From positions 1-64,000 of the forward strand of contig JAFGTX010000066.1 in NCBI GenBank assembly GCA_016938815.1: DNA of 64,000 nucleotides, read 5' to 3'. The translations under genes and the position numbers were made by a program. The notes beneath the pieces were generated by a model, which was not told the origin of the DNA, did not search any database, and saw nothing but the letters and a program-made list of their open reading frames with translations. This document shows, in pieces, positions 2,995-25,054 of this stretch; the stretch's first letter is position 1; each line of letters begins with the position of its first letter. The stretch is from Clostridia bacterium. GTDB taxonomy: Bacteria > Bacillota > Clostridia > Peptostreptococcales > Acidaminobacteraceae.

Positions 2995-4170
2995 CTAGCC
3001 TTTTTGAACAAAGATAACTTTTAAATAGTTGCTGCCTTCAAATTTTTTATTGACCCTAAAATCTTCAGGTAATCTGAATTCTTCCAAGACCTTATAGCTT
3101 GCTTTTTCAGCCTTGAAGCCTTCTTCAATCTGCTGCATAAATTTCTCTCTAGATAAGCCGCTGTGATTTGTCGAAGCGACAATCACACCTTCTTTATTAA
3201 GTAAACGTACTGATTTGTTGATCAGTTCGACATAATCCTTTTCAACGGAGAAAATTTTCTTTTTCGTTTTCGAATGACTCGGTGGGTCCAGCACGATAAG
3301 GTCAAAGCGTGCGTCCGCTTTATAAGCAGCATCAAAATAATCAAAGACATCCGTGATGATGATTTCATTGGACATCAAAGACAAGTCGTTAAGATAGAGG
3401 TTTTCCTGAGTCCACTCCAAGCTACGTTTTGCAACGTCAACGCTCACCGTTCTATTGGCGCCACCAACTGCAGCCGCAATAGAAAATCCGCCTGTATAGG
3501 AAAACATATTGAGTACGCTTTTTCCTGACGCGTATTTCTTTTGGATGCAGTTTCTGACATCTCTTTGGTCCAAGAAGAGGCCCACCATACCACCATCGTT
3601 GAAATCCAAGGCGTAATAGTTGCCGTTTTCCATGATGACAAGCGGCGTTGGTGCCTCTTCACCACAGACATAGGCGTCACCCTGAAGGGCTTTATCACCT
3701 TCTTCGAAGCGGCGCTTTTCGTAAATGCCCTTAAAGCTCGTTACATTCATAAAGGCATCCATAATCTTATCTTTGAACTGATAAATACCTTTGTTGTACC
3801 AGTTGAACATATAGTAGCCATCGAAATAATCAATCGTCAGGCCTCCAATACCATCCCCCTCGCCATTAAAAATTCTAAAGGCGTTGGTTTTAGTAGAATT
3901 ATAGAATTTTTGTCTTAGTTCTATGCTTCTCTGAAACGCTTTATAAAAAAATGTATAGTTAATTTTCTCTTCCGAATCATAAGTCAATACCCAACCCAGA
4001 CCCTTGTTCTGATAGCCAACATAGGCCGTACACAAGTAATTGTCCGCATCATCGACCAATTGCACGATGTCGCCCTCTGTTGTAGGCACTTTACCAAGTA
4101 TCGCTTCCTTAAGCAATATTGGAAATCCCGTTTTATAATTCTGCTTAAATTTTCTTTTAATAACAATCAT
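2995..4170 (-). CDS. Class I SAM-dependent rRNA cytosine methyltransferase (RlmI/RlmK-like)
   Basis: Predicted to methylate a 23S rRNA cytosine at C5, in the style of RlmI. An N-terminal PUA-like RNA-binding part is followed by the EEHL-type linker domain and a Rossmann methyltransferase with VLNMFSYTGGFSIAA (SAM loop, about residue 215) and the catalytic-region motif DLIVLDPPSHSK (about 295). Length 391 aa against about 396 for E. coli RlmI. The ORF-track N-terminus is extended. GGAG lies ten bases before ATG 4170 and seven before an in-frame TTG at 4173; ATG was taken. The next gene, DUF362, starts at the stop codon. An extended -10 promoter lies 28 bp upstream of the start. Confidence 0.88.
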   Translation of the reverse strand: MIVIKRKFKQNYKTGFPILLKEAILGKVPTTEGDIVQLVDDADNYLCTAYVGYQNKGLGWVLTYDSEEKINYTFFYKAFQRSIELRQKFYNSTKTNAFRIFNGEGDGIGGLTIDYFDGYYMFNWYNKGIYQFKDKIMDAFMNVTSFKGIYEKRRFEEGDKALQGDAYVCGEEAPTPLVIMENGNYYALDFNDGGMVGLFLDQRDVRNCIQKKYASGKSVLNMFSYTGGFSIAAAVGGANRTVSVDVAKRSLEWTQENLYLNDLSLMSNEIIITDVFDYFDAAYKADARFDLIVLDPPSHSKTKKKIFSVEKDYVELINKSVRLLNKEGVIVASTNHSGLSREKFMQQIEEGFKAEKASYKVLEEFRLPEDFRVNKKFEGSNYLKVIFVQKG

Positions 4171-4316: not shown

Positions 4317-5771
4317 TTAGAAATGTTCGAACGCAGATACAACAATTTTTTTCACCCTTCCATCTTCGATGGTCGGTGACAAGAGAAAAATCAGCTTGCA
4401 ATCCTTCCCATACCGATAGATTTTTTCCATCACCCGAATAGACTCCATATTTTTCGTGCAATTGGTATAATGGTTTCTCAACTTCTGTCCCAGCTCGTCC
4501 ATAAGTGCCTCAGGAGCAGCGCCTACCATCTCTTCCAAATCATATTCGAAAAGTTCCAGAGCCTCCGTATTGGCATTCAAATATCTAAAATGACCGCTTT
4601 CAAGAACTTCAACCACTAGAATTGCCGCTTTGACCGACTGATAGATGGCCTCGTACTCGGAATTCAATTTGACAATTTGGTCGTACAGCTCCTTGTCTCT
4701 CGTAATTTCCTGAGTGATACCGAAAATTTTGACCGCATTGCCGTCCATATCATACTGTATTTGCTGTTTGTCCGACAGCCAGATACGCTCGCCGCTATTC
4801 TTCAGATATTCGTAGATATGCTGATGTCCCATCATAGATTGGCGCATATCACAAGTGGCTTCCGACATGCGAAGCCGATAAAGCTGCTTGATTTCATCCA
4901 CTTCACGGGGTGCCACATCCAGCAAATTCATCAGACCTTCAGAAAAACGATACTGATCATTGCTGACGTCCCATTCCCAGTTGCCTGTCGCCGTCAATTT
5001 CTGAACATTGCGCAATGTCTCTTTTTGATCCTGATATTCCAATTCCAGCAACTTGTAGCTGTTGACGTTTTCCACGATGGCGGCAATTCGACTGCCAGTC
5101 TTCATGAGGTCTACACGAGCCCAGCCTTTCTCGCCATGATGGCCCAAGATGCGAATCGTCATCTGTTTGACTTCGTGAGGCTGAAGTTGCTCCACCGTTT
5201 GCTGGAACAAATCATAATCACGATGGTAAATCAGATTTTTGAACAAGTCCTCCTTTTCGTCTATATCAGATCGATTGACATGAAACACCTTCTCAAAATC
5301 GCCAATCAATTTATAAACATGCATCTCCGAGTTCAATTCCATATAGCACAGCTGTCGGCTGACGAAGATTTTCATCAGCTCGTTCATCTGGTCCAAGCCA
5401 CCAAATACATCGCGCTTACTCCAATTATACATCAGAAGGTCGATATATGCACCACTCACCGTTGCGACGACCGTTGCATCCACCACATGCTCGGAAAAGA
5501 AGACATCTCTTTTGCCAGGCTTCTGTGTCATATAGACATCTTCAAGCAAAGAGGTCAGTTTCTGATAATTTTCGCCGCTAATCACGCCGATTTGATGTAG
5601 ATTCTGATCGATAACAATTTCTCTATGTAAATCAAAAATAGTGACAAAAGCTTCATTACACTCTCTAATCACGTAATCATAGCCGTTTGAGGACCTTGAA
5701 ACCACTTCAAGAAGAAGATGCCCTTCTTCCATAACATCAAACAAATCTTTCAACCGTTGATAATGCTCCAT
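4317..5771 (-). CDS. Multi-PAS sensor protein without an output domain
   Basis: A soluble 484-aa protein that appears to be made only of PAS-like folds. A first PAS lies near residues 5-110, a less clear one around 150-250, a PAS/PAC with the GERIWLSDKQQ and GITQEIT signature near 270-375, and a last one near 385-484. I see no kinase, GGDEF, EAL, HTH or MCP segment, and no transmembrane helix. It may act through a partner, perhaps the GGDEF-EAL protein encoded just upstream on the same strand, although a terminator separates them. The start is supported by GAGGAGGGG seven bases before the ATG, and a strong terminator follows. The ligand is unknown. It could also be the remains of a longer kinase that has lost its end. 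Confidence 0.75.
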   Translation of the reverse strand: MEHYQRLKDLFDVMEEGHLLLEVVSRSSNGYDYVIRECNEAFVTIFDLHREIVIDQNLHQIGVISGENYQKLTSLLEDVYMTQKPGKRDVFFSEHVVDATVVATVSGAYIDLLMYNWSKRDVFGGLDQMNELMKIFVSRQLCYMELNSEMHVYKLIGDFEKVFHVNRSDIDEKEDLFKNLIYHRDYDLFQQTVEQLQPHEVKQMTIRILGHHGEKGWARVDLMKTGSRIAAIVENVNSYKLLELEYQDQKETLRNVQKLTATGNWEWDVSNDQYRFSEGLMNLLDVAPREVDEIKQLYRLRMSEATCDMRQSMMGHQHIYEYLKNSGERIWLSDKQQIQYDMDGNAVKIFGITQEITRDKELYDQIVKLNSEYEAIYQSVKAAILVVEVLESGHFRYLNANTEALELFEYDLEEMVGAAPEALMDELGQKLRNHYTNCTKNMESIRVMEKIYRYGKDCKLIFLLSPTIEDGRVKKIVVSAFEHF

Positions 5772-21757: not shown

Positions 21758-21859
21758 TTATGCTTCTTTTTTGTTAAATGCTAAATTGATCAAATAAATG
21801 AAACCTGCTAAATAAAATCCGATGACCAAAGTCATCATAACCATTGATTGAATTGACAT
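21758..21859 (-). CDS. metS: MetS-like small subunit of NSS amino-acid transporter
   Basis: A 33-codon gene absent from the ORF track. It encodes MSIQSMVMMTLVIGF followed by more hydrophobic residues and a basic end (NKKEA): one transmembrane helix with a lysine-rich cytoplasmic tail. Its start overlaps the stop of the NSS transporter by one base (TAATG). Small single-helix partners of this size and position (MetS with MetP in Corynebacterium) are required for the function of some NSS transporters. The assignment rests on size, topology and translational coupling; the family sequence itself is too short for certainty by eye. Confidence 0.8.
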   Translation of the reverse strand: MSIQSMVMMTLVIGFYLAGFIYLINLAFNKKEA

Positions 21860-23355
21860 TATTCAGCCACCCCTTCCATTGCTTCTTCAGCATTCTTGTG
21901 GGACATTTTATTAGCGAACAGTTTGTTCGTTGAAAATGCAAATACAAACAGAATTGCAAACTGCACAAGAATTGTGCCTACACTGAACACTTCTTTTGGA
22001 TCTAACCAGCTATCTGGATACCATGTACTCGCTTGCCACATCCACCAGCCAAGTAAAATAACGAAGATGAAAGGAATCATATACATCGTATACGTCCACC
22101 ATTTTGGTACTTTTAAGTCTGCCCATGGTGCATTGATGATTTCCGTTCTGATCTTTTCTGGACCATAGTTAATCATTGCCAACGCTACAAATAGGCCACT
22201 CACTAGAAGCGCTACACCCCATACCCAGTCTTGGTTGTCTAGGATATTCAAACTATAAGCCGATGGAATTCCTAATAAGAAACCAAAACCTGTTACGATC
22301 AATGTCGACTTTTGTCTGTTTAAACCTGCATCCATGAAAGTACGAACACCTACTTCGATCATAGGAAGTAATGAAGATAAGGCTGCAATCGCCATAGCTA
22401 AGAAGAAGACCGCTGCTACCAATTGACCAAATGGCATTGTTGTAAATAATTGTGCCAAGTAGATAAATGTCAATCCAGAGTTACCTGCGCTAAGTACTTC
22501 ACCTGCAAATTCTGGGCTAGGTGATAATGCGAAGATCGCACTCATAACGGTTACACCTGCTAAAAGCGCACCTACATTATTACCAAATCCCATAATCGCA
22601 CAGTTACATGGAATATCTTCTTTCGCATGCGTATAAACCGCATAAGTGATAATGAAACCCCAGCCTGCGCCTGTCGACCAAGCACACTGTGTGAATGCTT
22701 CCAACCAGATTTTCGGATTCGAAAGCATCGCAATATCTGGGTTGAAAAGATACTGTAAACCTTGTAATGCACCTGGTAATGTGACCGCTCTCACAAACGC
22801 ACCAATCAAGAGTACAAATAACATTGGAATCATAATCTTGCTGGCTTTTTCAATACCACCAGAAACACCTTTGTAGATAATAATTGTTGCAATCGCCATT
22901 GAGATAAAGTGGAATAGAATCGTTTGCGATGGCGTCGTCGTAAACGTCTTCCAGATGACTTCCGTCATTTCAGTTGTTGAATTTGGTGCAAAAGCGCCAG
23001 TTAGCGCCAAGGTGAAATACTTCACGCACCAGCCCATGACCACCGAATAATAAAACATGATCAATAAGCACACACCAACAATCCAAGTACCCATCCATGT
23101 GAATTTCTTTCCAAGGAAATCCCTAAAACCAGCAATAGCACCGTATCCAGTTTTCTTACCAATAACCATTTCAGCCATTAATAATGGAATACCCCAAGTG
23201 AATAGCGCAATCGTCCACGCTATGATAAAGGGGCCACCACCATTTGCCGCGGCTACTCTTGGAAAACGCCAGATGTTTCCAGTCCCTATTGCCATACCAA
23301 TACTTGCTGCAATGAAGCCCCATCTACTGCTCCATTGTTCTTGTCCTTTACTCAC
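21859..23355 (-). CDS. NSS-family sodium:amino acid symporter (MetP-like)
   Basis: A 498-aa member of the neurotransmitter:sodium symporter family, with about 11-12 helices. The TM1 signature GMAIGTGNIWRFPRV with NGGG following is exact for the family and lines the sodium and substrate sites. With a MetS-like partner immediately downstream, methionine or alanine is the likely cargo, but the substrate is inferred. GGAGG lies eight bases before GTG 23355, and the sequence from there begins SKGQEQWSSRWG, the usual NSS N-terminus; the 28 extra track codons are therefore rejected. Upstream is copy A of a 278-bp leader that also precedes the TSUP gene, with a terminator-like hairpin about 50 bp before the start. 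Confidence 0.92.
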   Translation of the reverse strand: MSKGQEQWSSRWGFIAASIGMAIGTGNIWRFPRVAAANGGGPFIIAWTIALFTWGIPLLMAEMVIGKKTGYGAIAGFRDFLGKKFTWMGTWIVGVCLLIMFYYSVVMGWCVKYFTLALTGAFAPNSTTEMTEVIWKTFTTTPSQTILFHFISMAIATIIIYKGVSGGIEKASKIMIPMLFVLLIGAFVRAVTLPGALQGLQYLFNPDIAMLSNPKIWLEAFTQCAWSTGAGWGFIITYAVYTHAKEDIPCNCAIMGFGNNVGALLAGVTVMSAIFALSPSPEFAGEVLSAGNSGLTFIYLAQLFTTMPFGQLVAAVFFLAMAIAALSSLLPMIEVGVRTFMDAGLNRQKSTLIVTGFGFLLGIPSAYSLNILDNQDWVWGVALLVSGLFVALAMINYGPEKIRTEIINAPWADLKVPKWWTYTMYMIPFIFVILLGWWMWQASTWYPDSWLDPKEVFSVGTILVQFAILFVFAFSTNKLFANKMSHKNAEEAMEGVAE

Positions 23356-23385
23356 GAATAAAACCTCCACCCTTGTTAGTTTCAT

Positions 23386-23663
23386 AACAATCCAGATTAT
23401 TAAAAATGCATTCGCGAACATTCTGTACTCCGAATGCATTTATTAACTTTCTGTAATTTTATGATCACTGCTCATTTATTATGTTATCTCAATAATTTTG
23501 ACATTGCAAGGTTTTTGAAGGTTTCTTAGTATAATATTACGTTTTGTTAATAATTTAAATCTTAACTATTACAAACTCGTAATAATTCGAGCATTTGAAA
23601 ACATCGCTTGAATTTTCAGTCAACCGTATATTTACTCGGCTACTGCGTCACCAGGATTAATAA
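23386..23663 (-). repeat. Leader repeat copy A, upstream of the NSS transporter
   Basis: This 278-bp stretch aligns collinearly with 24727-25003. Identical runs include ATTGCAAGGTTTTTGAAGGT and CGAACATTCTGTACT; the block TTGAATTTTCAGTCAAC recurs 55 bp beyond the core in both copies. Each copy lies directly upstream of a leftward transporter gene, so it is probably a duplicated promoter-leader giving common control. It contains no ORF of note. Confidence 0.85.
23404..23441 (-). promoter_or_regulatory. Terminator-like hairpin in leader copy A
   Basis: AAATGCATTCG (23404-23414) pairs with CGAATGCATTT (23431-23441); on the minus strand it is followed by TTAATAAT, extending a run of five Ts. It stands 49 bp before the NSS start codon, a position expected of an attenuator. 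Compared with copy B, one base pair is lost from both arms together, so the stem is kept. Confidence 0.55.
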
Positions 23664-23700
23664 AAAAAATCCGTCTATGCACATGGCATACGGACGGATT
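23662..23700 (-). terminator. Terminator of the TSUP gene
   Basis: AATCCGTC (23668-23675) pairs with GACGGATT (23693-23700) with TATGC/GCATA inside, followed on the minus strand by eight Ts. It is 54 bp past the TSUP stop and adjoins leader copy A. Confidence 0.88.
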
Positions 23701-23754
23701 GTTTGATTTTTATTTATTTCAGCTATATGTTTCAATGGATTTCTTAATCCTCAA

Positions 23755-24651
23755 TTAATTTGAGGCCATCACAGGTTCACTTTTAGATTCATTTTTTCCT
23801 ACAGCTGATCTGAGCATGCTAACAGAAGTTATAAAGACTACCGCTACAACCAATTTATTAAGTGTGTCTACCGACATTGATTTGACTAAAAAGGCTGCCA
23901 GCAAGACCCCTACGACACCGAAAATATTAAATGCCATAGATAGATGTCTATTGAACGCACCCTCTTTAACGAATTTAATGGAAGCTACGGGCTGTAAAAA
24001 TGCAGCCGATCCCATCATAATCGGAAATGCGACTAATGGAGACATCCCTAAAGTGAATACCAAGGCCATTATTGGAGCGAAACATCCAACACCAAAACAT
24101 TGTGTAATACCGGCTATAAAAGCCCCAATACACCCAATGACAAGCTTTATTCCCGTCAACCCGACAGCGTCACCTCCTGGAGGCATCAAACCTGTCATTT
24201 TGCAAATCATAATTGTGGCAACCAATAACAAGGCGACCGCCATAGAAAGTTGTACTTTGACTTTAGGTAATTTAGAGACAAGCCCCGCACCAATGTAGGC
24301 ACCTAATGAACAGCTCACAAGGATAGCCACCAAGGTCGTCGTATCTACTTTGACGACCGTAATAAATATGAATGCTTCTGCAATCACAGGCAAGCAATTT
24401 GCAACATTCAACGTTCCTGGAATTTGTTTATCGTCAACCATTTTGGTGAACTTAAAAATTGCTGCAGACGGTGCAAAACTACCAACCCCAAGAGTATCAA
24501 AGAAATTTACAACCGCACCAATAGCGCCAGCTGTAAAGAAATTGATGTTTTCCAACTTGCCTTCTTTCTTTACCGCCAAATAATCTTTAACAAAAATAAA
24601 AATGAACATAACTGCAAATACAAATAAGGTACCTAATATAATTTGAACCAT
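23755..24651 (-). CDS. TSUP family permease (TauE/SafE-like)
   Basis: A 298-aa membrane protein with about eight helices in two homologous halves: FDTLGVGSFAPSAA near residue 50 and CFGVGCFAPIMAL near 187 are the paired family motifs. TauE/SafE proteins export sulfite, sulfoacetate or similar, and some move other organic anions; substrate not determinable here. AGGAGAGG precedes the ATG. It carries the same 278-bp leader as the NSS gene, about 75 bp upstream of its start, so it should respond to the same signal. That suggests a shared link to sulfur or amino-acid supply (inference). Monocistronic with its own terminator. Confidence 0.9.
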   Translation of the reverse strand: MVQIILGTLFVFAVMFIFIFVKDYLAVKKEGKLENINFFTAGAIGAVVNFFDTLGVGSFAPSAAIFKFTKMVDDKQIPGTLNVANCLPVIAEAFIFITVVKVDTTTLVAILVSCSLGAYIGAGLVSKLPKVKVQLSMAVALLLVATIMICKMTGLMPPGGDAVGLTGIKLVIGCIGAFIAGITQCFGVGCFAPIMALVFTLGMSPLVAFPIMMGSAAFLQPVASIKFVKEGAFNRHLSMAFNIFGVVGVLLAAFLVKSMSVDTLNKLVVAVVFITSVSMLRSAVGKNESKSEPVMASN

Positions 24652-24726
24652 GATATCCTCTCCTGACTTTCCAATCTCCCACGATTGTTTTCTACAAAAT
24701 CAAACCCAACATTTTGTTAATTAAAT

Positions 24727-25003
24727 AACAACACAGATCATTAAAAATGCATTCTCGAACATTCTGTACTCGAATGCATTTGTTAACTTTCTGTAATTTC
24801 ACGATTGTTATTCCTGCATTATGTTAACTCAACATTTTAGATATTGCAAGGTTTTTGAAGGTATCTTAGTATGAAATTACGGTTTGTTAATAATCTTACT
24901 CTGAAATGTTAATGTTGTTTAACATTTTGTACTTTTAACGAATTTAGTTTGAATGTTCAGTCAACTATATATTTGCTGGACTATTTCGTGATCCTGATTA
25001 ATG
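24727..25003 (-). repeat. Leader repeat copy B, upstream of the TSUP permease
   Basis: Collinear with copy A (23386-23663). Both contain the hairpin, the ATTGCAAGGTTTTTGAAGGT run, a conserved GTTAATAAT, a 55-bp diverged spacer and a block with TTCAGTCAAC. The last block resembles a CodY box (AATTTTCWGAAAATT) at 11 of 15 positions in each copy. The TSUP start is 75 bp away; the ferritin-like gene diverges on the other side, 51 bp away. Confidence 0.85.
24745..24781 (-). promoter_or_regulatory. Terminator-like hairpin in leader copy B
   Basis: AAATGCATTC (24745-24754) and GAATGCATTT (24772-24781), followed on the minus strand by TTAATG after a T run. Same place in the leader as in copy A; the loop sequence with ACAGAATGTTC is identical. 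Confidence 0.55.
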
Positions 25004-25054
25004 AAACTTTCTAGGGGTAGTTAATGAAAAATAGCAAAATTAAGGAGGTTTATT

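Follow-up and report, generated by a model that had tools for sequence, protein, structure and literature searches.

The described systems closest to the locus studied here are the Rex operators and the control regions of proline reductase (prd) genes in clostridia. The Rex motif of Clostridiaceae is TTGTTAANNNNTTAACAA, and the predicted regulon includes Rnf (PMC9600882; PMC5367854). Proline-dependent control of Stickland metabolism in C. difficile is exerted jointly by Rex and the sigma-54 activator PrdR (reviewed in PMC9450991). A third group for comparison is that of riboswitch and attenuator leaders, such as the S-box, the T-box and other Rfam families.

We analyzed a 64,000-nucleotide stretch (the window) of a Clostridia bacterium from the family Acidaminobacteraceae (assembly GCA_016938815.1, contig JAFGTX010000066.1), in which one leader is present in two copies, one before a gene of the sodium:neurotransmitter symporter family (NSS) and one before a gene for a TSUP permease. 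Like clostridial Rex operators, the leaders carry an 18-bp palindrome with TTGTTA and TAACAA arms, rex is encoded in the genome, and sites of this type are found before the redox/NAD genes rnfC, NAPRTase and prdA. They differ in that the NSS and prdA sites do not have the inner A7/T12 of the consensus and that the site in the window would lie ~90–110 bp past the putative transcription start. With the prd control regions of C. difficile and of L086 (a Tissierellales MAG described below), the locus shares the Rex-type palindrome and an association with Stickland proline genes. However, the L086 leaders and the NSS gene of another genome, G001, have a sigma-54 (−24/−12) promoter, whereas TGGCAY-N5-TTGC was absent from both window leaders with up to one mismatch, and the other block sequences are different as well. 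The likeness to riboswitch and attenuator leaders is limited to a hairpin with a short U-run between the putative promoter and the gene; Rfam matches, covariation and phylogenetic spread are missing.

Two copies of one control region

The minus strand encodes both genes, and the leaders are accordingly read from right to left (Table 1). The two copies are collinear and 77% identical over 313 bp, with an E-value of 5.9e-58 when the leader was matched against the whole genome. They contain an ungapped core of 141 nt (82% identity, offset 1340), and the conserved blocks are therefore equally spaced in both. This agrees with the earlier note, which had described collinear upstream copies with equal block spacing; the true extent is slightly longer than it had given. 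The similarity covers the whole intergenic space: copy 1 starts directly past the TSUP terminator, and the far end of copy 2 is ~48 bp short of a divergent rubrerythrin-like gene.

Table 1. Features of the NSS–TSUP locus, in positions of the window.
Feature	Position	Strand	Details
33-aa hydrophobic ORF overlapping the NSS stop codon	21758..21859	-	translation
NSS gene	21859..23355	-	PF00209, E = 1e-60
Leader copy 1	23357..23665	-	precedes NSS symporter, GTG start 23355
Rex-type palindrome, copy 1, TTGTTATGAAACTAACAA	23373..23390	-	exact TTGTTA-N6-TAACAA; 2 mismatches to TTGTTAANNNNTTAACAA
Hairpin block III, copy 1	23393..23453	-	CAGA..GTTAAY.AAATGCATTC [loop] GAATGCATTT.TTAAT..TCTG; counterpart 24734-24793
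Sigma-70 promoter, copy 1, TTGCAA - 17 - TAACAT	23481..23509	-	putative; copy 2 at 24821-24849
Block II, copy 1, ATTATTAACAAA.CGTAAT...ACCTTCAAAAACCTTGCAA	23504..23564	-	counterpart 24844-24904
Block I, copy 1, ..GTTGACTGAA[A/C]ATTCAA	23608..23633	-	upstream site; counterpart 24949-24974
TSUP permease gene	23755..24651	-	PF01925, E = 6.8e-17
Leader copy 2	24698..25006	-	precedes TSUP, ATG start 24651
Rex-type palindrome, copy 2, TTGTTATTTAATTAACAA	24714..24731	-	exact TTGTTA-N6-TAACAA; 1 mismatch to TTGTTAANNNNTTAACAA

A search of the 3.2-Mb genome detected only these two adjacent copies. No copy was detected by BLAST in 98 relatives, where the matches obtained were due to chance (the best, in L003, was inside the tgt coding sequence). 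Exact 28-mers of the leader were absent from the scanned genome contigs, and phage and plasmid collections gave no match. The comparison is thus one of two sequences from a single genome. The earlier note had proposed a mobile or duplicated regulatory leader, of which the duplicated regulatory part stands; the mobile part is not supported, as dispersed, phage or plasmid copies are absent.

Conservation along the leader is blocky, with four blocks at ~90–95% identity and spacers at ~45–50%. In 20-column steps, identity is 17/20 in block I, 9–11/20 in the spacer beside it, 16–19/20 in block II including the −35 element, 12/20 in the second spacer and 18–19/20 in hairpin block III, which is followed toward the gene by the palindrome. 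Decayed spacers between retained blocks indicate that the copies are old and that selection (or gene conversion) has preserved the blocks. This pattern makes it very improbable that we are looking at a recent neutral duplication whose similarity reflects shared ancestry without regulatory meaning, even though the two copies lie next to each other and are confined to this genome. The duplication is real, under selection and ordinary in kind, probably a promoter-operator region.

Block II, in which a tandem ACCTT repeat with its units 10 bp apart can be read, is a possible activator site abutting the −35 element. The putative sigma-70 promoter is proposed solely from conservation: both hexamers and their spacing are identical in the two copies, but each hexamer is weak (4/6 consensus matches) and the promoter is absent from the promoter-scan list. 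A dual inverted operator around the promoter, formed by RTTAACWWWMYGTAAT, was also considered and is not claimed, as 25–55 of 200 shuffles gave inverted repeats that were as good. The genome has four exact RTTAACWWWMYGTAAT sites, all within the leaders, with centers 94 bp apart.

The hairpin and the RNA reading

The earlier note had placed a hairpin near the gene in each leader, and both copies indeed fold far better than expected (z = −3.6, with none of 200 shuffles folding as well). It had also described the stem as kept by paired changes, which we did not find: all 22 pairs are identical between the copies, none covaries and the loop is equally conserved, although with just two copies such a comparison has no power in either direction. 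The sole difference related to the stem is an inserted G that, together with a C/A change, adds one G-C pair in the NSS copy.

Could block III be a cis-acting RNA, an attenuator or riboswitch of ~70 nt that senses a ligand and stops transcription before the gene? Besides its folding, this would be consistent with its position between the putative promoter and the gene, with the joint conservation of stem and loop, as in ligand-binding RNAs, and with the U-run TTTTTAAT that follows. However, the predicted fold pairs the U-run itself, we saw no alternative antiterminator fold, and the next block downstream is a palindrome of the DNA type. Also, cmscan of the whole window gave no match to any Rfam family, which bears out the reported absence of S-box and T-box features, and a covariance model of the leader found no relative in 117 other genomes. 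Together with the lack of pair variation, these results make the attenuator doubtful, and the riboswitch-like reading of the earlier note, or a new riboswitch, is not supported on present evidence. The hairpin with TTTTTAAT is not on the terminator-scan list, for which the loop limit was 8.

The palindrome and its genomic sites

The leader element closest to each gene, between hairpin and gene, is the palindrome TTGTTA-N6-TAACAA, which had been overlooked in the earlier note. Its arms are invariant between the copies and its center has diverged, as would be expected of a protein operator. By sequence it fits a clostridial Rex operator, with binding by Rex as a prediction. The genome has a rex gene (C279, 209 aa; 339.6 bits to NF003990, for which the cut-off is 233), and the nearest solved structure to its product is 3wg9.

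Exact TTGTTA-N6-TAACAA occurs four times in the 3.2-Mb genome versus once for a control pattern. The four sites are in the NSS leader, in the TSUP leader, in the prdC-prdA gap of the D-proline reductase operon (2 mismatches to the Rex motif) and at a rhodanese lipoprotein gene. With one mismatch allowed, the genome-wide counts were 23 versus 24 for the control, and with a shorter core lacking the outer bases they were 10 versus 11. Exact palindromes summed across the family numbered 47 versus 38, which is no clear enrichment. Since the mismatch-tolerant and shorter-core counts do not exceed the control, the case for Rex lies in the identity of the genes and not in the number of sites. Rex-type palindromes are located upstream of prdA, rnfC, gdhA and NAPRTase here, and sites of similar type precede rnfC in both the window genome (G000) and G022, as well as NAPRTase in the former. 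The same rhodanese gene is preceded by such a palindrome in the window genome and in G038.

The latter sites bear on another reading, in which the leaders are a duplicated promoter-operator whose palindrome is read by a different regulator, such as a protein of the LysR type or one that responds to sulfur. Other genes with the palindrome include one for a rhodanese and one for a YedE/TsuA-like transporter next to a divergently oriented LysR gene, TSUP proteins commonly deal with sulfur compounds, and the two inner positions missing from the NSS and prdA sites belong to the Rex consensus. On the other hand, no LysR gene adjoins rnfC, NAPRTase or prdA, all of them redox/NAD genes, and rex itself is present, so that a regulator other than Rex appears unlikely. 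As a separate observation, rhodanese and YedE/TsuA-like genes of several genera (L134, L140, L154 and L156) share a TGTGAGATTG box in addition to the palindrome, and this common box suggests a possible sulfur regulon.

Links of the NSS and TSUP genes to proline reductase

Of the 79 loci fetched for relatives of the window TSUP, 49 have the TSUP gene next to prdF (proline racemase). A prdF-TSUP-NSS arrangement was seen in four thermophiles (L059, L060, L068 and L102), and the NSS proteins of these loci are 52–53% identical to that of the window. Also, a TSUP paralogue (49% identity) is the last gene of the prd operon in the window genome itself. The earlier note had called the two genes unrelated; this holds for their sequences but not for function, given the prdF-TSUP-NSS linkage elsewhere. 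Because of this linkage, the TSUP-NSS order of the window may be read as a pair of transporter genes that has become separated from the proline reductase system, with a copy of the control region before each gene. The closest relatives of the window TSUP (L042–L046) stand alone, which makes the link of this TSUP itself to proline metabolism an indirect one.

The 33-aa ORF that overlaps the NSS stop codon had no Pfam match. It resembles the small, MetS-type subunit of MetPS-type NSS importers, and a similar small ORF follows NSS in G001. In that genome, the NSS orthologue (L036:1-1500, 71% identity) has a sigma-54 promoter, TTGGCACAGTGCTTGC, beside a sigma-54 activator gene, as well as TGTCGG..CGACA repeats, and the small ORF is followed by a 2Fe-2S dehydrogenase-like subunit. 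Upstream of the stand-alone Clostridium TSUP genes, a palindrome resembling AATTCAATTTACTGAATT is shared by L042, L043, L044 and L046 (at about 3880–3930). The prdC gene of the window genome (L171:1-290) has a sigma-54-like promoter, TGGCACGAGTCCTGC, with 1 mismatch, ~35 bp before the start codon.

A parallel duplication in L086

L086, an unrelated Tissierellales MAG, has its own duplicated leader of 330 bp (81% identity, at 2103-2427 and 4969-5294), whose copies precede prdF-TSUP and prdC-prdA. The palindrome is exact before prdC and has one mismatch before prdF, and both copies also have a dyad-rich element upstream of it and a sigma-54 promoter. The sequence of this leader is unrelated to that of the window. 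In prd-linked loci, a second transcription unit thus seems to have received a copied regulatory region on more than one occasion, apparently twice independently.

Proposed explanation

We consider it probable (about 0.6) that the leaders are a duplicated promoter-operator that ties Stickland transporters to a Rex-type redox signal. Each copy would comprise two upstream sites (I and II), a promoter of the sigma-70 type, the hairpin block and, between promoter and ribosome-binding site, the Rex-type palindrome. Transcription would be sigma-70-dependent and activated by other proteins via sites I and II, and NAD+-bound Rex would occupy the palindrome downstream of the start and block it. With rising NADH, Rex would leave, and TSUP and NSS would be expressed together with prdA, which has the same palindrome upstream; the two transporters would serve proline (Stickland) fermentation, an NADH sink. 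Duplication of the region before each gene of an ancestral TSUP-NSS pair would have resulted in two separately transcribed, co-regulated genes. In this scheme we infer Rex binding, repression and the direction of control, the substrates and the order of evolutionary events. Several findings speak against it: palindrome counts do not exceed the control with a mismatch or with the shorter core, the promoter is a weak one, the nearest relatives of the window TSUP stand alone, the distance of the palindrome from the putative start is far for simple repression, and Rex does not account for the two best-conserved blocks, II and III.

The hairpin and the operator might also act as a unit. TTGTTA-N6-TAACAA is preceded by a hairpin with a T-run, ending 11–12 nt before it, in the NSS leader, the TSUP leader and the prdC-prdA gap. 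Bound Rex would then halt RNA polymerase over the U-run at the moment of hairpin formation. In this way Rex would turn a weak hairpin into an efficient terminator, and high NADH would release it. Because the three cases amount to just two independent ones and the rnfC palindrome sites have no hairpin before them, we regard such a redox-gated terminator as quite improbable.

Returning to the promoter-operator under a Rex-type signal, the locus suggests that the proline reductase system of clostridia includes the NSS and TSUP transporters. In the literature searched, we found no paper naming NSS or TSUP partners of prd, and TSUP is undescribed there as the frequent prdF neighbor that it is. Proline uptake and release of 5-aminovalerate are natural candidate roles for the two transporters. 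Their co-regulation would have been achieved by copying a whole promoter-operator region, apparently on two independent occasions, in the window and in L086.
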